Assembly: GCA_015523335.1 (NCBI GenBank)
Contig: WAKM01000043.1
Location: 1-33,473 of the forward strand
Direction: 5' to 3'
DNA: 33,473 bases
DNA from: Archaeoglobaceae archaeon
GTDB lineage: Archaea; Halobacteriota; Archaeoglobi; Archaeoglobales; Archaeoglobaceae
Position numbers and translations under genes: made by a program. The notes beneath the pieces were generated by a model. That model did no database searches. It was not told where the DNA came from and worked only from the letters and a program-made list of their open reading frames with translations. Of this stretch, positions 818 through 8,521 are shown piece after piece. Position 1 is the stretch's first letter; the number at the start of each line of letters is the position of its first letter.

Positions 818-1411
818 TCAACGCCTGCATATCATGATGAAATTCTCTATTATCCTCAAGCCGACCTTACCGCTCTTCTCCGGATGAAACTGGAATCCGA
901 TGACGTTATCCTTCGCAACACCCGACGTGAACTTTATTCCGTATTCGGTTTTCGTGAGAACGTTCTCCTCAGCCGTCTGCATGTAGTATGAGTGGACGAA
1001 GTATACGTAGCTACCGCTCTCTACCCCGTCCAATATTTCGTGATCTCTCACGATCTCGATCTGGTTCCATCCCATGTGAGGGATCTTGCCCACCGTTTTC
1101 GGAAATCTAACAACCCTGCCAGGTATTAGGTTTAAACCCTTGTGCAAACCTCTTTCCTCGCTTTCGGTTGCGAAGAGTTGCATTCCCAAGCAGATTCCGA
1201 GCAGAGGAGCATCGGTGTTCAGAATTGTGTCCATATATGGCTTCAAATTCTCCATAGCCGGCTTGAAGGCTCCCACTCCGGGCAGAACTATCCCGTCCGC
1301 GTTTCTGATCGTTTCAACATCCTTAGTTACGACAGCCTTACCTCCGACGAACTCTATCGCCTTTTGTATGCTCCTAATATTGCCCACACCGTAGTCGATT
1401 ATCGCTATCAT
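818..1411 (-). CDS. hisH: Imidazole glycerol phosphate synthase, glutamine amidotransferase subunit HisH
   Basis: HisH hydrolyses glutamine and passes ammonia to HisF, which makes imidazole glycerol phosphate and AICAR in histidine synthesis. The 197-residue class I amidotransferase has the oxyanion strand PGVG (44-47), the nucleophile Cys74 in GICLGMQL, and the His176/Glu178 pair in FHPEKSG. The N-terminus (IIDYGVGNI) is typical of HisH rather than of other amidotransferases. No other his gene is in the window, so hisH is apparently scattered from the pathway. It diverges from pstS and shares the 165-base intergenic region. A TATA-like GAGTATATTC on its strand near 1433 fits a transcript starting at or near the ATG. 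Confidence 0.95.
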   Translation of the reverse strand: MIAIIDYGVGNIRSIQKAIEFVGGKAVVTKDVETIRNADGIVLPGVGAFKPAMENLKPYMDTILNTDAPLLGICLGMQLFATESEERGLHKGLNLIPGRVVRFPKTVGKIPHMGWNQIEIVRDHEILDGVESGSYVYFVHSYYMQTAEENVLTKTEYGIKFTSGVAKDNVIGFQFHPEKSGKVGLRIIENFIMICRR

Positions 1412-1514
1412 AACAGGAGAATTGAAAGAATATACTCAAATCTTACGGTATTGAATTCGACATTAAAGGGCGGGCGGTGTCTTCAACCAATCCGATATGT
1501 ATTGCCCGATACCG

Positions 1515-1533
1515 ATCTATAGATTCTATAGAT
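1515..1533. promoter_or_regulatory. Tandem palindromes upstream of the pst promoter (putative operator)
   Basis: Two exact 9-base copies of TCTATAGAT lie end to end (1516-1524 and 1525-1533). With the base before it, the first forms a perfect 10-base palindrome, ATCTATAGAT. The block ends about 14 bases before the TATA box of pstS. The position suits a regulator of phosphate uptake; binding by the AbrB-PhoU protein encoded in the operon is a guess. Confidence 0.45.
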
Positions 1534-1546
1534 TATGTAGGTAAAG

Positions 1547-1554
1547 CATATATT
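1547..1554 (+). promoter_or_regulatory. TATA box of the pst operon
   Basis: CATATATT is centred 26 bases before the pstS ATG at 1577. Archaeal transcription usually starts 25-27 bases from the TATA centre, so the pstS mRNA should be leaderless or nearly so. No ribosome binding site precedes the ATG, which agrees. Confidence 0.6.
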
Positions 1555-1576: not shown

Positions 1577-2647
1577 ATGAAAAAAATCTCAATCGTTTTG
1601 CTACTCGCGCTATGTTTGGCGTTAGCCGGTTGCGCACAGCAAAAAACCGGATCTACCTCGCAGAAAGTCATTCTAATCGGAAGTGGTGCCACTTTTCCAC
1701 AACCACAGCTTGAGAAGTGGATCGACGCATACATGAAGCTGAATCCGAACGTCGTGATTGAATACACCGGAAAGGGTAGCGGAGGAGGGCAAGCGGATTT
1801 CGAAGAGGGCTTGGTGGACTTCGCATGTAGCGACCCTCCGCTAAAGGAACCGCTATGGAAGAGACTCGAACAGAAGGGGCAGCCCCTGCAGTTTCCGATG
1901 ATCGTCGGTGCCGTAGTCGTTACCTTCAACATTCCGGGAGTTAAGGAACTCAGACTGGACGGAAAGACTTTAGCCGACATCTTCATGGGCAAGATCAAGT
2001 ATTGGGACGATCCGAAGATAAAGAAACTGAATTCGAATGTTGATCTACCGCACAAGGAGATAATAGTAGTTCACAGGAGCGATTCGAGCGGAACGACGAA
2101 GATCTTCACGACTTATCTGTGCTTGGTCAGCAACGAGTGGAAGGAGAAGGTCGGCTCTGGAAAGGTTGTGGAATGGCCGGTTGATGAACTTGGAAGGGGA
2201 GTAGGCGGAAAGGGTAATCAGGGTGTGGTTGCGGCGATAAAGAACAATCCGTATTCGATAGGATATACCGAACTGTCGTATGCCATAAAGGAAAATCTGC
2301 CGATTGTAGCTTTGAGGAATAAGGACGGGAACTTCGTTAAGCCGAACGATACGACGATAAAGGCGGCGATATCTGAAGTTTCCATGAATTTCCCACCGCC
2401 TACTGAAGGATACAAAGAGAAGATTGAGAACTTGCTCAACGCTCCGGGTAAGGATTCGTATCCCATCGTTGCGGTTAGTCACATAATCGTGTGGGAGCAC
2501 TACAGCAATAAGGCGAAGGAGCAGGCGATAAGGAACTTCGTAAAGTGGATTCTTACGGAAGGTCAGAAGTCGAAGTATTTGGCAACCGGATACGTTGGTC
2601 TGCCGAGCGAACTAACCCAAAAATTGCTTAAGGAGGTGGGATGGTAA
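1577..2647 (+). CDS. pstS: Phosphate ABC transporter, substrate-binding lipoprotein PstS
   Basis: This is the extracellular phosphate receptor of the Pst importer. The 356-residue protein starts with a lipoprotein signal: MKK, a hydrophobic stretch, and the lipobox LAGC with Cys19 as the likely lipidated and anchored residue. Typical PstS sequences follow: IGSGATFPQPQ, the phosphate-loop region YTGKGSGGGQADF, the second loop HRSDSSGTT, and GYTELSYA. It heads an operon with pstC (7-base overlap), pstA, pstB and two PhoU-type genes. The start at 1577 is supported by the TATA box 26 bases upstream. Confidence 0.96.
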   Translation: MKKISIVLLLALCLALAGCAQQKTGSTSQKVILIGSGATFPQPQLEKWIDAYMKLNPNVVIEYTGKGSGGGQADFEEGLVDFACSDPPLKEPLWKRLEQKGQPLQFPMIVGAVVVTFNIPGVKELRLDGKTLADIFMGKIKYWDDPKIKKLNSNVDLPHKEIIVVHRSDSSGTTKIFTTYLCLVSNEWKEKVGSGKVVEWPVDELGRGVGGKGNQGVVAAIKNNPYSIGYTELSYAIKENLPIVALRNKDGNFVKPNDTTIKAAISEVSMNFPPPTEGYKEKIENLLNAPGKDSYPIVAVSHIIVWEHYSNKAKEQAIRNFVKWILTEGQKSKYLATGYVGLPSELTQKLLKEVGW

Positions 2648-3555
2648 GGATGGATAAATTTAAAACTTTTTTAGCCCCCTTCTGCGGTCTCGTATTTGGT
2701 CTTTTTATATTAATGCTTATTGTGTATTTAACGGCATCACTACCGATCTTCGAGAGAGAGGGATTGGCGATATATACGACGAACGTATGGAAAGCTTCGG
2801 AAAATCCCCAAAAAGAGTTTTACGGTGTATTGGCGGCTATATACGGTAGCATCTATACGTCCGTTCTCGCGGTTCTAATAGCCTTACCGCTATCTATAAG
2901 CTTCGCGGTATTCGTTATCGACTACGCGCCGAAGAGGTTGAAAGAGCCGCTTATGGTGGCTACGGACATCATGGCTGGATTACCCACAATAATCTACGGA
3001 ATATGGGGTGCATTCGTCTTGGTTCCGATCCTTAAGGAATACGTTATGATGCCCCTCTATGAGCACTTCTCCTTCATACCGCTGTTCTCCTTCAGACCTG
3101 TGACGGGTTACAGCTACCTCTCCGCTGGAGTTCTCTTGGGAATAATGGTTACTCCTTTCGCCTCCGCAATAATAAGAGAAGCCTACAGATCCATCCCCTA
3201 CATATACAGAGAGGGAGTGTATGCCCTCGGAGCGACGAGGTATGAGGCGACGAAAGTCCTCTTAGGCTACATAAAGCCGGCTATAGTTGCAGGAATTCTG
3301 CTGGCGTTCGGTAGGGCTATAGGAGAAACGGTAGCCGTAAGTCTGGTCATAGGAAACGTATTCAACATAAATCCGAGTCTGTTCGCTCCGGGCTATACGA
3401 TATCCTCGCTCATAGCGAATCAGTTCGGAAACGCCTACATATACAAATACATGGTTCCGGCCCTCTTCGCAGCCGGACTGTCTCTGTTCATAATAGGTTT
3501 GATCGTAAACTTAGCCGGACTTATGTATCTGAGGAGGTTCAAGTATGCTCGTTAG
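2641..3555 (+). CDS. pstC: Phosphate ABC transporter permease PstC
   Basis: One of the two membrane permeases that form the phosphate channel in the cytoplasmic membrane. The 304-residue protein has an N-terminal membrane helix (about 13-33), an extracellular loop, and five further hydrophobic segments in the BPD_transp_1 domain. The coupling-helix (EAA-like) region is visible as REGVYALGATRYEATKVL, with GRAIGETVAVSLVIGN after it, characteristic of PstC. Its start overlaps the end of pstS by 7 bases and is preceded by a GGAGGTG ribosome binding site at 2633-2639, so translation is coupled. It overlaps pstA by 11 bases. Confidence 0.96.
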   Translation: MVRMDKFKTFLAPFCGLVFGLFILMLIVYLTASLPIFEREGLAIYTTNVWKASENPQKEFYGVLAAIYGSIYTSVLAVLIALPLSISFAVFVIDYAPKRLKEPLMVATDIMAGLPTIIYGIWGAFVLVPILKEYVMMPLYEHFSFIPLFSFRPVTGYSYLSAGVLLGIMVTPFASAIIREAYRSIPYIYREGVYALGATRYEATKVLLGYIKPAIVAGILLAFGRAIGETVAVSLVIGNVFNINPSLFAPGYTISSLIANQFGNAYIYKYMVPALFAAGLSLFIIGLIVNLAGLMYLRRFKYAR

Positions 3556-4384
3556 AAAGATAAAGGACAAGCTGTTCATCGTCGGAATCGCGACCTTGAC
3601 GTTTCTGACGATTCTACCTCTATTCCACATAGTATTCAGCGTAGCCGTGGAGGGTTTACCGGTTCTGCTGAAAGGCGGCTGGAATTTTATAACCGGAACG
3701 TTAGCGCCTCCCGACGACGGATTGGGAGGAATAGGTCCGGCGATAGTAGGAACTTTCGTTTTAACGTTCTTGGCATCGTTACTCGGATTGCCCATAGCTA
3801 TACTAACCGGAATATACGCGGCGGAGTATCCGAACAGCTTGCTCGGAAAAGCCACGAAAACTCTGCTCATGATTATGATGGAGTTTCCAACCATACTCGT
3901 CGGTCTCTTCGTGATGCAGATACTCGTCGTTCCTATGGGAAGCTATTCAGCTTTAGCAGGTGCCTTAGCCTTGGCGATAGTCATGATGCCATACGTTGCG
4001 GTTTACACCGAAGAGGCTTTGCGGGGAATTCCCAAGAAGTATAGGGAAGGAGCTTTTGCCTTGGGCTTAACCAGATTCAACGTAGTCTTCAGGGTTTTGA
4101 TAGGACTGGCGAGGAAAGGTATTCTGACCGGAGTTCTGATAGGAATTGCGAAGGTTGCGGGAGAAACTGCACCTTTGCTCTTCACAGCCGGAGGAGCCAC
4201 GAGAACATATTTCGAAGGAATAAACAGACCGGTCGGAGCGATTCCGTTGCTAATCTACGATTTGGTTCAGCAACCGTATAAGAACTACCACGAGATAGCT
4301 TGGGGAGCGTCCCTTCTACTCCTGATAATATTCCTCGCGATCTTTCTCCCCATAAGGCTAAGCTTAAAGGAGGTGAAACTATGA
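3545..4384 (+). CDS. pstA: Phosphate ABC transporter permease PstA
   Basis: This is the second permease of the Pst importer, pairing with PstC. The 279-residue protein has about six hydrophobic segments, the coupling-helix region [20 protein letters not shown] and the PstA-type [14 protein letters not shown] motif. It overlaps pstC by 11 bases and pstB by 4 (ATGA), a tight operon arrangement that keeps subunits in ratio. The 3' end holds the AGGAGGTGA ribosome binding site of pstB. Confidence 0.96.
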
Positions 4385-5133
4385 ACGCGATCGAAACCGA
4401 AGATCTGCACATTTACTACGGTAAGAATCATGTGATAAAGGGAGTAAATTTGGAGATTCCCGAAAAGTCTGTTTTCGCGATAATGGGGCCTTCCGGTTGT
4501 GGGAAATCAACACTGCTGAGATCTTTGAACAGACTGCTCGAACTCAACGAAGATGCAAAGATAAAAGGAGACATAAGGTTGTTCGGGAAGAGCGTGTTCG
4601 ACATGGATCCGATAATCGTTAGAAGGGAGGTTGGAATGGTTTTCCAGCATCCGAATCCGTTTCCGCACATGAGCATATTCGACAACATCGCTTTAGGACT
4701 TAAACTCAACAGGCTCGTTAAATCTAAAAATGAGCTTAAGAAAATCGTAAAATGGGCTTTGGAGAAATCGGCTTTGTGGGATGAGGTGAAGGATAAATTG
4801 CACGAGCCCGCTTCGGCACTAAGCGGTGGAGAGATGCAGAGACTTTGCATAGCCAGAGCTATAGCTTTAAAACCGAAAGTTCTGCTTATGGACGAGCCAA
4901 CAGCTAACTTGGATCCGGTCAGCGCGAGAAAGATAGAAGAGCTGATATTCGAACTAAAAAAGGATCTTACGATAGTTATCGTAACGCATTCTCCAGCTCA
5001 AGCGGCAAGAGTTAGCGACTACGTAGCGTTTTTGTATTTAGGGAAGCTGATAGAGGTGGGAAAGACCGAGGATATATTCGAAAATCCGAAGGAGGAGCTT
5101 ACGGAGAAGTATCTGACTGGGAGGATGGGTTAG
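4381..5133 (+). CDS. pstB: Phosphate ABC transporter ATPase PstB
   Basis: This is the ATPase that drives phosphate import. From the ATG at 4381 it is 250 residues, the usual PstB length. Walker A is GPSGCGKST (36-44), the Q-loop is VFQHPNPFP, the signature is LSGGEMQR (from 147), Walker B ends in MDEPT (Asp171, Glu172), and the switch histidine is in [12 protein letters not shown] chose 4381 over an in-frame start at 4300 because a strong ribosome binding site (AGGAGGTGA, 4370-4378) lies just before it, it makes a four-base ATGA overlap with pstA, and the protein then begins like known PstB. Confidence 0.96.
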
Positions 5134-5134
5134 T

Positions 5135-5737
5135 ATGATCGAAAAAAGGTTGGAGGCCCTGAAGGCGGAGGTCTTGGAGTTGCACAAGCTCGCTAAGAAG
5201 TCCACCGAGATCTGCTTGGAGGGTTTAAAGGGGAACGACGATGTTAGAAGGGAAACCGCAAAAATAGAGCAGATGGCCGATGTGCTGAACACGGATACCG
5301 ACTTCAACTGCGTGACAGCCATAGCTCTCTATCAGCCCGTTGCGAGGGATCTCAGGTTTATAATAAGCATGATGAGAATAGCTGGGAGTTACGAGAGGAT
5401 AACAGATTTAACGCAGGAGATTTCGATGTATGAATGCTCGGATGAGTTCCTGCTTGAGAAGTTCGAGGGGATGGTTGATACTCTGCTTACGATGTTCGAG
5501 GTTATCGAGAGAGCCTACGAAGGTGATACCGAGAACTTGAGAAAGCAGTTGTGGGCGTTGGACGACCTCGTGGACAGATACTACGTTGAAGCGATGGACT
5601 ACATGTCCGAAATGTGCGGTTGTTCTGTGGACTGGGTTCTTACCGCGAGGCATCTTGAGAGGATCGGAGATCTTCTGGGGAAGGTCGGGGCGAGGATAAT
5701 ATTTATCGAAGAGGGTAGAAGGGTTTGGATTAAGTGA
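5135..5737 (+). CDS. phoU: PhoU, phosphate signalling protein
   Basis: PhoU proteins are three-helix-repeat proteins that bind metal and damp Pst transport or phosphate signalling. This 200-residue protein has two PhoU repeats. The first carries the usual sequence around EQMADVLNTDTDFN, and the second carries ARHLERIGDLLGKVGARIIFIEEG, matching the ExxxD metal motif of family members with ERIGD. It begins one base after the pstB stop. The regulatory partner in archaea is not settled. Confidence 0.92.
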   Translation: MIEKRLEALKAEVLELHKLAKKSTEICLEGLKGNDDVRRETAKIEQMADVLNTDTDFNCVTAIALYQPVARDLRFIISMMRIAGSYERITDLTQEISMYECSDEFLLEKFEGMVDTLLTMFEVIERAYEGDTENLRKQLWALDDLVDRYYVEAMDYMSEMCGCSVDWVLTARHLERIGDLLGKVGARIIFIEEGRRVWIK

Positions 5738-6705
5738 TGGAGATGAAGAGAGAGGTTAGGAAAGTATATTCGAGCGGGAGGAGTAGCTACATAGTTACGT
5801 TGCCGAAGGATTGGGTCGAGAGGAACGGTTTAAAGGCTGGAGACGGAGTTATAATGGAAATAGGAGATGGGACGATCGTCATCTCTGTGGGCAAAGAGGA
5901 AAAGATTAAGAAGGATGCTCTGATCGATGCGAAGGATTTGGAAGGGGAACCGTTGATCAGAAGGATAATATCGTTCTATTTAGCCGGATACGATTCTCTG
6001 AGGATAAAGGTTTACAACGAGGAGCACAGAAGGGCTGTAGCCTTGGCTTCGGATATACTGATCGGAGCGGAAGTTATAGAGGATCTCGGAAAGGAGATAG
6101 TGCTCGAGATTTTCATGGACGATACGAGATATAAGCCTATGGACATTATAGAGAAGATGGGAAACATATGCATAGCCATGCTATCCGATTTCTGCACGGC
6201 TTTGAGGAATCTCGACAGATACATCTGCTCGACCCTTCACGTGAGAGAGGAGGAAATCGACAGGTTGCACTTCTTGGTTTTAAGACAGCTTAAGTCGGTG
6301 GTTAGGCAGTGCGGATCGACGGATCTTCAAACAACGAAAGCGTTGGAGTTCAGAACCGTCGTTAGGGCGTTTGAAAGAATTGCTGACCACATAGCGAACA
6401 TGTCCGATAGCCTGATGAAGCTCGGAAAGCCGATTCCAGAGCTCTGCGATCTTGTAAACAACGTTCACGGACTGCTAAAGACTGCAAACGTATCTTTTTT
6501 GAGAGAAGATACCGAATTGGCCGACTTCGTTTTAAATGAATTCGGAAAGTTGTCCGAGACCGAGGATGAAATCTACAGACGGTTCATAGAGCAGAACGTC
6601 AAGGACGCTCTATTCATGAAATCGATAATCGACAGCCTCTTCAGAATTGCCGCGTATTCGGCGGACATAGCCGAAGTCGTCATAAACATGTGCGTTCCCG
6701 ATTAG
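5734..6705 (+). CDS. AbrB-type DNA-binding domain fused to PhoU domains (phosphate uptake regulator)
   Basis: The first ~50 residues form a SpoVT/AbrB swapped-hairpin domain (RKVYSSGRSSYIVTLPKDWV, then GLKAGDGVIMEI), a fold that binds DNA. The remainder holds two PhoU repeats; the first has ERIADHIANMSDSL, with the metal-binding ExxxD pattern. The protein is therefore a plausible direct transcriptional regulator that senses phosphate state through PhoU. The GTG at 5734 overlaps the phoU stop; ATG codons at 5737 and 5743 are equally possible starts. It is last in the pst operon, so autoregulation through the palindromes at 1515-1533 is a testable idea. Its 3' end overlaps the convergent kinase gene by 26 bases. 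Confidence 0.85.
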   Translation: MMEMKREVRKVYSSGRSSYIVTLPKDWVERNGLKAGDGVIMEIGDGTIVISVGKEEKIKKDALIDAKDLEGEPLIRRIISFYLAGYDSLRIKVYNEEHRRAVALASDILIGAEVIEDLGKEIVLEIFMDDTRYKPMDIIEKMGNICIAMLSDFCTALRNLDRYICSTLHVREEEIDRLHFLVLRQLKSVVRQCGSTDLQTTKALEFRTVVRAFERIADHIANMSDSLMKLGKPIPELCDLVNNVHGLLKTANVSFLREDTELADFVLNEFGKLSETEDEIYRRFIEQNVKDALFMKSIIDSLFRIAAYSADIAEVVINMCVPD

Positions 6706-8050
6706 CGGATCTAAGCCTTATTACGAAAATAGAACCCTTCGGCTTATTGTCTTCGATCCAAACCTTTCCTCCGTAGCTTTCGACTATCATCTTAACGAGA
6801 TACAAGCCCAAGCCCGTGTGCTTCCCGAATCCCTCCTTAAACACGGCTTCCTTGTCTACAATACCCGGTCCGTTGTCAGCAACTCTAATCTCAACCCAGC
6901 CGTTGAGCTTTCTGGCTGTGATCTCGATTTTAGGGGTTTTCTCGTCGCTGTGAACTATCGCGTTGATTATCAAGTTTCTGAAGACGGAAGTCAAAAGTTC
7001 GTCGGCTAAAACGTTAACGTTCGGAACGTTTACGCTAATCTCCGCGTTGGGATATCCGGCGGTTTCGCGTTCTAAGATTTCTTTAAGATTTACGGGCTTT
7101 AACTCGGATCTGTTTTCAACATCTCGAATGGACTTAATTAGGTTTATTGAATTCTTTATTCTGATAAATATTTTCTCTATGAGCTTTTCGTCCCTGCTTT
7201 CCTTGTAAAGCTCCAGATAGCCCATAATAGCAGTTAGATCATTGAGTATGTCGTGCCTCATGAGTTTGTTCAGAAGCTTGACCTTCCTCCTTTCCCTCTC
7301 AATGTCTTCGACCGTAACTATCTCCAAGCTTTCGGAGTAGACCTTATACATTGCAAAGAGTATGACTACGTAACAGAGGTTGCCGAAGACATCCGGAAGG
7401 GAGCCAGGGTAGTATATGTTCCAAGCCTCGTAGTAGCTGTATAGGACATTTTCTATCAGTGTCAGAGCTAAACATATGGCCAAAGCGCAGTATATAAATC
7501 CGAACCTTCTCTTAACGTAAACTAGGAGTATTAGGATAACTATCGGAATCAATACTATATCGAGAGCAACATACAGCGTCGATACGAAAGCTTCGAGCGG
7601 GCTGAGATGCCCTTTCACGCAACACATTACCGGAAACAGAATGACGTCAACTGCTAAAGCCGTAAGCACGGAGGCAATTATATAACTGCAAAGATCTACG
7701 TATTTCATATATTTTTTTAATATTGTGAGTAGGATGTATATAAACGGTATGTATGACGAAATCCAGAAAATGTCGGCGAGGGACGGGAAGGGGTTTATTC
7801 CGATTATCTCGTAGTAATTCCACGTGATCTCACCAAGCCAGCTTAAGATCGACGAAAGGGCTACTGCAAGCCCTATCTTCTTTATCTCCCCTTCGGAGTG
7901 GATATAAACTATCAGCGCGACTACGAATACAATTAAGGGAACGACGGTCGTGAATATGTAGTTGTGAATTCTCGCTAAATCTTGAGGCAAAAAAGCGCTC
8001 AAAATCGCGATGATAATTCCGACAATCAGTGCAACTGTTGTTTTCCGCAT
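6680..8050 (-). CDS. Membrane sensor histidine kinase
   Basis: 456 residues. Residues 1-240 hold about seven to eight hydrophobic membrane segments, with the stretch GEITWNYYE ... PFPSLADIFW seen in integral-membrane sensor modules. The kinase core follows: H-box MRHDILNDL with phospho-accepting His266, N-box around NLIINAIVHS (359-368), G1 DNGPG (392-396) and G2 GLGLYL (413-418). No HAMP or PAS domain is evident, so sensing is presumably by the membrane part. It begins within the end of the response regulator gene (25-base overlap), so the two form a two-component pair. The signal is unknown; a role in phosphate control is only suggested by the convergent pst block. Confidence 0.9.
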   Translation of the reverse strand: MRKTTVALIVGIIIAILSAFLPQDLARIHNYIFTTVVPLIVFVVALIVYIHSEGEIKKIGLAVALSSILSWLGEITWNYYEIIGINPFPSLADIFWISSYIPFIYILLTILKKYMKYVDLCSYIIASVLTALAVDVILFPVMCCVKGHLSPLEAFVSTLYVALDIVLIPIVILILLVYVKRRFGFIYCALAICLALTLIENVLYSYYEAWNIYYPGSLPDVFGNLCYVVILFAMYKVYSESLEIVTVEDIERERRKVKLLNKLMRHDILNDLTAIMGYLELYKESRDEKLIEKIFIRIKNSINLIKSIRDVENRSELKPVNLKEILERETAGYPNAEISVNVPNVNVLADELLTSVFRNLIINAIVHSDEKTPKIEITARKLNGWVEIRVADNGPGIVDKEAVFKEGFGKHTGLGLYLVKMIVESYGGKVWIEDNKPKGSIFVIRLRSANRERTCL

Positions 8051-8382
8051 ATCTTATCTATTAATTCGAGAATCTTACGTCTGGTTATCGGCTTTTCGAG
8101 TAAAGCAATCGCTCCGGCTTTGAGCATCTCCTCCCCTTTTGGCGCAAAAGCCGTAATTCCTACGATCTTAGCGTTGGGATCGATTTTAAGAATTTCCTTC
8201 GTTGCCTGAATACCATCCTTCTTCGGAAGGACTATATCCATGAAAACGATATCCGGTTTCTCCTTTTTGTATAGCTTAACCGCACTCTCGCCATCCGAAG
8301 CTTCGATCACATCAAAACCATCTAGCATTATCTTAAGGATCTCCCTTATTGCCTGATCATCATCGACGATCAAGACCTTCAT
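8026..8382 (-). CDS. Receiver-only response regulator (CheY-like)
   Basis: This 118-residue protein is a single receiver domain with no output domain. The acidic pocket is DDD (7-9), the phospho-accepting residue is Asp49 in VFMDIVLP, and the switch residues are Thr77 and Lys97 (EKPIT). I start it at the ATG at 8382, giving the classic beginning MKVLIVDDD; a GTG at 8397 is in frame but a GAGGGGAG ribosome binding site sits between the two. The stop overlaps the start of the kinase gene. Without an output domain it must act by protein-protein contact or as a phosphate relay. Confidence 0.92.
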   Translation of the reverse strand: MKVLIVDDDQAIREILKIMLDGFDVIEASDGESAVKLYKKEKPDIVFMDIVLPKKDGIQATKEILKIDPNAKIVGITAFAPKGEEMLKAGAIALLEKPITRRKILELIDKICGKQQLH

Positions 8383-8521
8383 AATGGCTCCCCTCACTCA
8401 TCATTATACTTGTGCTAATGATGGTATTTAAAGTTTATTGTAACTTCGAACCAACTTACGAAATATATATGAAAAATAAAATTTTAAATTTAATGCGTTA
8501 TAACGGAAAGTTTTATTTTGG

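Follow-up and report, generated by a model that had tools for sequence, protein, structure and literature searches.

In Haloferax volcanii, PhoU2 (HVO_2374) is predicted to be a DNA-binding regulator and is syntenic with pst1 (PMC6267482, accessible part), and P-boxes in the pst promoters of Halobacterium salinarum are needed for up-regulation and have been ascribed to PhoU regulators (cited in the available portion of PMC6560208). A SpoVT/AbrB protein with a PhoU domain, TK2245, has been recovered with chromosomal proteins of T. kodakarensis (PMC7325993, table entry), and a census of Pyrococcus transcription factors (TFs) lists PhoU-like proteins among the TF families (PMC6316755, accessible part). 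In bacteria, E. coli PhoU takes part in PhoU-PstB-PhoR contacts (PMC5775613, available text). For phosphate sensing at the gene level in archaea without PhoR/PhoB, we offer here a candidate regulator-operator pair that extends from Archaeoglobi to crenarchaeal records, starting from a stretch of 33,473 nucleotides of a heat-loving Archaeoglobaceae archaeon (the window), whose pst operon and neighboring genes are as follows.

818-1411, minus strand: class-I glutamine amidotransferase gene, divergent, at the other flank of the intergenic region (Pfam GATase)
1577-2647, plus strand: pstS (Pfam PBP_like_2; NCBIfam TIGR00975 above cut-off)
2641-3555, plus strand: pstC (Pfam BPD_transp_1, position)
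3545-4384, plus strand: pstA (Pfam BPD_transp_1, position)
4381-5133, plus strand: pstB (Pfam ABC_tran, position)
5135-5737, plus strand: phoU, in which a DNA-binding domain was not found (Pfam PhoU, E 1.5e-21)
5734-6705, plus strand: abrB-phoU, proposed regulator (Pfam, AlphaFold, Foldseek)
6680-8050, minus strand: histidine kinase gene, convergent neighbor and possible input (Pfam HATPase_c, HisKA)
8026-8397, minus strand: stand-alone CheY-like receiver response regulator gene, output domain not found (Pfam Response_reg)

The window gene is likened to Haloferax PhoU2 as a DNA-binding PhoU beside pst, which in the accessible part of that work is a prediction without an operator; in the window the gene is the last in the operon. 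TK2245 is the same fusion by name, and its table entry gives neither a target nor a phosphate role. As far as the available texts describe them, the Halobacterium P-box is also a cis element of pst promoters, and the bacterial PhoR/PhoB-PstSCAB-PhoU system shares the Pst transporter and PhoU control of Pho transcription; it differs from the window in that here a DNA-binding domain is fused to PhoU and a PhoB-type regulator was not found. A DNA-binding PhoU beside pst has thus already been predicted (Haloferax), and the operator is without report in the literature searched, in which we found no description of a CTATA pst operator, most subscription papers lying outside its scope. Window PstS is 99% identical to PstS of an Archaeoglobaceae MAG, its nearest named relative in our scan. 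PstS proteins in three records titled Bathyarchaeota, Thaumarchaeota or Thermoplasmata (L069, L077, L082) are 53-63% identical to it, which may reflect either transfer or mislabelled bins.

The 165-bp intergenic region preceding pstS holds the following elements.

1513-1554, plus strand: conserved block with the proposed operator, the possible third, degenerate 9-bp repeat, BRE and TATA (congener alignment)
1515-1533, no strand: dyad ATCTATA-N5-TATAGAT, proposed operator, holding the palindromes 1515-1524 and 1525-1532 (sequence, single genomic copy, congener conservation)
1535-1543, plus strand: ATGTAGGTA, which may be a third, degenerate repeat of the 9-bp unit CTATAGATT (deduced from the sequence and, by eye, from the same phase in G015, a member of the neighboring genus)
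1540-1546, plus strand: BRE-like GGTAAAG (sequence, archaeal promoter knowledge)
1548-1554, plus strand: TATA box ATATATT, centered 26 bp before the ATG at 1577 (sequence)

The earlier note had described a gapless double repeat whose first copy lies within a perfect palindrome, and both are confirmed: positions 1515-1533 read ATCTATAGATTCTATAGAT, with TCTATAGAT at 1516-1524 and again at 1525-1533, and 1515-1524 (ATCTATAGAT) is a perfect palindrome. In addition, the whole 19-mer is a perfect odd dyad, ATCTATAGA-T-TCTATAGAT, a feature absent from that note. Between the dyad and the BRE lie 6 bp, and the pstS mRNA is probably leaderless because the TATA center lies only 26 bp from the ATG. The pho box of PhoB consists of 11-bp direct repeats; the window site, with a 9-bp period or a dyad, does not match it.

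The symmetry by itself is weak evidence, because the window holds other comparable repeats (in total, inverted repeats of this kind stand at 4 distinct places and tandem ones at 4); rarity across the genome is stronger. Dinucleotide shuffling of the 165-bp region, done 5000 times, produced an inverted repeat (arms of at least 9, spacer no longer than 5) in 38 cases and a comparable tandem repeat in 23, and 9-mer repeats with at most one mismatch are ordinary in the window (10 found vs 11.1 expected). In the 1.40-Mb, 99%-complete genome, CTATA-N5-TATAG occurs a single time, at 1515-1533, and the 19-mer with at most 3 mismatches has one other place (3 mismatches), immediately downstream of an HTH gene. 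A second phosphate target was found neither by these two whole-genome searches, nor with TRKATTANKTAGRYAA, allowing at most 2 mismatches, in five genomes of the genus (392 matches vs 374 for the reversed control), nor with TCTATAKA (79 rows vs 164 for the reversed control). About 10 of 62 TCTATAKA places, in five stretches, were inspected and lie within ORFs, 3' of the HTH gene or before a chaperonin gene. In the window's own genome (C56, L229:3444-3490), a TTCTATATAC...TTATATAGAA inverted repeat directly precedes a TCP-1/cpn60 chaperonin gene (Pfam).

Comparison with congeners sets the element apart from its surroundings. Across G000, G001, G003 and G002, 41 of 42 columns of 1513-1554 (site, BRE and TATA) are invariant, vs 12/21 in the downstream flank and 14/98 upstream, the latter figure being depressed by the shorter G002 region (G000 and G003 alone share 61/98 there, and 44/45 positions at 1511-1555). 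The earlier note had made its reading depend on the repeat being kept upstream of pstS in relatives, and this holds for three of four congeners, identically in G001 and G003 and with one change in G002. That change falls at 1522, the only variable column; it disrupts the first palindrome, yet being a spacer position it leaves CTATA-N5-TATAG intact in G002, as well as a TCTATA direct repeat. Hence the tandem palindromes proposed as the unit are present in the sequence and are probably not the functional one, the G002 substitution breaking the first of them, and the element is probably better described as one 19-bp dyad. The fourth congener, G004, whose pst operon is more divergent, has other sequence at the site and lacks the dyad. 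In G015 the dyad is likewise absent and a 9-bp direct repeat, TAGATT-N3-TAGATT, is retained, which together with a third copy keeps its register to the TATA box (by eye). Given the G002 and G015 patterns, the functional unit may be either a dyad or a direct repeat. Judging from these alignments, the element is real and conserved, and positioned as a regulatory site should be.

The candidate regulator is the protein encoded at 5734-6705. That the operon ends with a fusion of AbrB and PhoU domains, as had been claimed, is borne out by Pfam (MazE_antitoxin, E 4e-11; PhoU, E 5e-18); the AbrB part spans residues 1-52, an alpha/beta part about 60-127 and PhoU 135-320. In the AlphaFold model, whose mean pLDDT is 86 and drops in residues 1-60 (51-79 through most of AbrB), an AbrB-like N-terminus of low confidence is followed by an additional alpha/beta domain and an entire PhoU. 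Foldseek matched the PhoU structure 1t72 (E 3.7e-6, TM by target 0.78), so that model and search agree on the PhoU fold of two three-helix bundles, and matched no AbrB structures with this model. All 25 aligned AbrB-PhoU members match both Pfam families (AbrB/MazE and PhoU), and the AbrB residues R9, G15, P24 and W27 are invariant among 32 aligned proteins. Between AbrB and PhoU, residues about 60-127 form in the model a small beta-alpha-beta-alpha-beta-beta domain without a Pfam match, possibly a ligand or signalling domain.

AbrB-PhoU proteins are present in 40/40 genomes searched, a tally that includes the window's own genome and counts distant paralogues. In the named-genome scan, abrB-phoU adjoins pstS divergently in 30 of 80 PstS loci, the 80 being drawn in part from short contigs and from bacteria, and several of the 30 being close relatives; of the 19 genomes that represent other genera of the family, 12 have this divergent arrangement. 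The same-strand order pstSCAB-phoU-abrB/phoU occurs in the window genus, L111 and L114, and the window gene at 5734-6705 counts as adjacent to pstSCAB. Of 26 loci holding both pst and AbrB-PhoU, 5 (L074:12105-12521, L148, L154, L159 and L162) also have, close to pst, a low-molecular-weight phosphatase/arsenate-reductase-like gene (by eye).

The intergenic regions between pst and abrB-phoU are rich in half-sites resembling those of the window, which itself has TCTATA and lacks the exact 6-mer CTATAT. In a discovery set of 25 such regions (without the near duplicates L067, L085, L089, L094, L095 and L097, and without L155, which is not intergenic), CTATAT occurs 51 times vs 3 expected from the other promoter regions in those loci, and in 24 of the 25 regions. 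Among 2080 6-mers it ranks first in the euryarchaeal set and second in the Thermoproteota set, a split that is our own, with L069 (titled Bathyarchaeota) and L073 and L076 (titled 'archaeon') placed as euryarchaeal, and a ranking that leaves out L116, a near duplicate of L104. In a wider set of 32 regions (without G004, G011, G012, G015 and G019), CTATAT or TCTATA is found in 30 vs 17 of 80 control divergent regions from the same loci, from which only exact duplicates were removed; the Fisher value of 5.5e-13 is optimistic, since the 6-mers were picked on 25 of these 32 regions, overlapping positions were counted separately and starts are approximate. Both sets contain G000 despite its non-divergent abrB-phoU. 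Half-site density is 20.9 positions per kb in the 32 regions vs 2.5 per kb in the 80 controls; farther than about 50 bp from both starts it is 33.5 vs 1.7 per kb (16/32 vs 4/80 regions), and because the excess holds away from start codons it does not consist of TATA boxes only. Both 6-mers are lacking in 2 of the 32 regions and TCTATA in 9.

Part of this excess is owed to general AT/TATA richness, because TATATA is enriched too (28/32 vs 11/47 controls) and the reversed 6-mers are mildly up in the discovery set (TATATC 24 vs 12.2 in shuffles); in the 32 regions reversed TATATC does not reach significance (16/32 vs 13/47, p 0.058), and TTTATA is not enriched (13/32 vs 19/47). Eight regions outside the discovery set, from which the k-mers had been picked, carry 14 TCTATA vs 3.2 +/- 1.8 in shuffles, in 5 of the 8, with 4 vs 2.9 for the reversed control; all except L128 are crenarchaeal by title, and this analysis includes both L116 and L104. 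Archaeal pstS upstreams lacking a divergent AbrB were set aside in it, since the L112 entry spanned its entire 9-kb contig. Seven further archaeal regions, including G026 and G027, which had been examined earlier, contain CTATAT in 6 and TCTATA in 5. Bacterial pstS upstreams, with 1 TCTATA in 3.6 kb vs 1.2 in shuffles, are an uninformative control.

The arrangement of the half-sites varies. Their most frequent spacers are 5-8 in the diverse set and 4 in the family of G030, orientation varies too, and no fixed spacing rule across archaea was found when tested. In 30 AbrB-PhoU upstream regions of the G030 family, CTATAT occurs in 19 and reversed TATATC in 20; because TATATC is as frequent as CTATAT there, only dyads such as GACTATACCGGTATAGTC are informative. 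Dyads such as GACTATA-N4-TATAGTC, with both arms complete and a spacer of 4, are present in 3 of the 16 regions of this family tested, adjacency to pst being established for G030 only. As to the suggested search for the motif upstream of phosphate genes of related genomes, similar half-sites do occur, and their arrangement and spacing differ between clades. A 28-column EM motif turned out to be mostly BRE/TATA and hence was not taken as proof. Two other stretches are recorded here. In L070, L071, L081 and L087 (Thermococcales-type) and in L084, L086, L088 and L089, all distant archaea, a conserved TATTGCGRCAATCTTTATAT / TATGTCGAAAANTATATAT-like stretch enters the pstS BRE and TATA and may be a second, BRE-overlapping element; and several relatives among L184-L199 keep the palindrome ATACGTAT/ATACATAT only some bases upstream of the start codon of a second, pst-unlinked AbrB-PhoU gene (by eye), possibly as its own operator or an initiator.

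On balance, we regard it as probable that 1515-1533 is a pst promoter operator bound by AbrB-PhoU, phosphate-responsive and autoregulatory, the last feature being suggested because the regulator gene sits in the pst operon. An AbrB-PhoU dimer or higher oligomer would read the CTATA half-sites through the AbrB domain, while the PhoU part, by analogy with bacterial PhoU, would report phosphate status via contact with PstB and/or the separate PhoU. Occupancy of the operator could then alter recruitment of TBP/TFB, because the site is directly upstream of BRE/TATA, and thereby change pst expression. Binding at the dyad, the oligomer, the phosphate signal and the regulatory sign are what we infer for this protein; a site upstream of the BRE slightly favours activation under phosphate limitation, with repression through TFB interference nearly as likely. 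If this is true, transporter sensing and DNA binding would be joined in a single protein as a one-component switch, which suggests that PhoU can supply the sensing part of a transcription factor, beyond its role as a kinase partner. The direct phosphate switch proposed from the sequence is thus retained as to its conserved, well-placed site and the half-sites that go with pst-linked AbrB-PhoU, and probably to be revised as to the tandem-palindrome unit. Whether CTATA half-sites and AbrB-PhoU together form an ancient Pho operator common to Euryarchaeota and Thermoproteota, which replaces PhoR/PhoB and whose architecture has drifted, appears to us evenly balanced.

It is unlikely, though the best surviving of the alternatives, that another TF encoded elsewhere (e.g., of Lrp, ArsR or TrmB type) uses the site, with AbrB-PhoU acting at the protein level or elsewhere. 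Many archaeal operators are AT-rich dyads, which suits such a factor, and a half-site is present in half of six Methanococcales-like pstS upstreams whose fetched contigs have no AbrB-PhoU (CTATAT 3/6, TCTATA 3/6). Overexpression of a Halobacterium Lrp induces pstC2 and phnC, possibly through SirR (PMC2894021, accessible part). However, the half-site accompanies AbrB-PhoU in Archaeoglobi, DHVE2-titled and crenarchaeal records, and in the 26 loci, which were selected for AbrB-PhoU near pst, only two other families recur in at least 3 loci (5 and 4 loci), neither of them DNA-binding by eye.

The kinase and receiver at 6680-8397 could instead be the phosphate sensors, the phosphorylated receiver docking on PhoU or AbrB-PhoU and so setting operator binding, which we consider improbable. 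The pair comes right after the operon, the kinase and abrB-phoU ORFs sharing 26 bp at their 3' ends, and is kept in G001, G002 and G003, with the kinase alone detected in G004. However, among the fetched stretches, many of them short, the kinase was seen beside pst within the genus only and the pair was not detected there outside it; the receiver lacks an output domain; and no PhoB-type protein was found in the window's own genome, where Trans_reg_C (PF00486, the PhoB-type OmpR winged helix) has 0 matches at 99% completeness, vs 10 of 14 control genomes positive. The putative AbrB-PhoU switch is likely to be independent of two-component signalling, as the earlier note had proposed.

That the element amounts to no more than a longer basal promoter (a BRE/TATA flank) whose symmetry is accidental is very doubtful: conservation does continue through BRE and TATA, CTATAT lies inside the TATA boxes of several relatives, TATATA shares in the enrichment and many pst promoters have a TATTTCGACAA-like sequence immediately next to TATA, but the enrichment persists beyond about 50 bp from both start codons, TTTATA does not take part in it, and TCTATA is nearly absent upstream of the pst-unlinked AbrB-PhoU paralogue (1 in 6.39 kb from 20 upstream stretches, coding ends included).

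AbrB-PhoU genes are also found next to another kind of phosphate transporter. In G008 and G019 (L149:7852-10589 and L161:5663-8395), abrB-phoU and a PHO4/Pit-type phosphate permease gene are transcribed divergently, with a DUF47 (PhoU_div)-type gene after the permease; Pfam supports these assignments for the genes of L149 and for the permease of L161. A separate receiver match in L149 lies close to a Pit locus.
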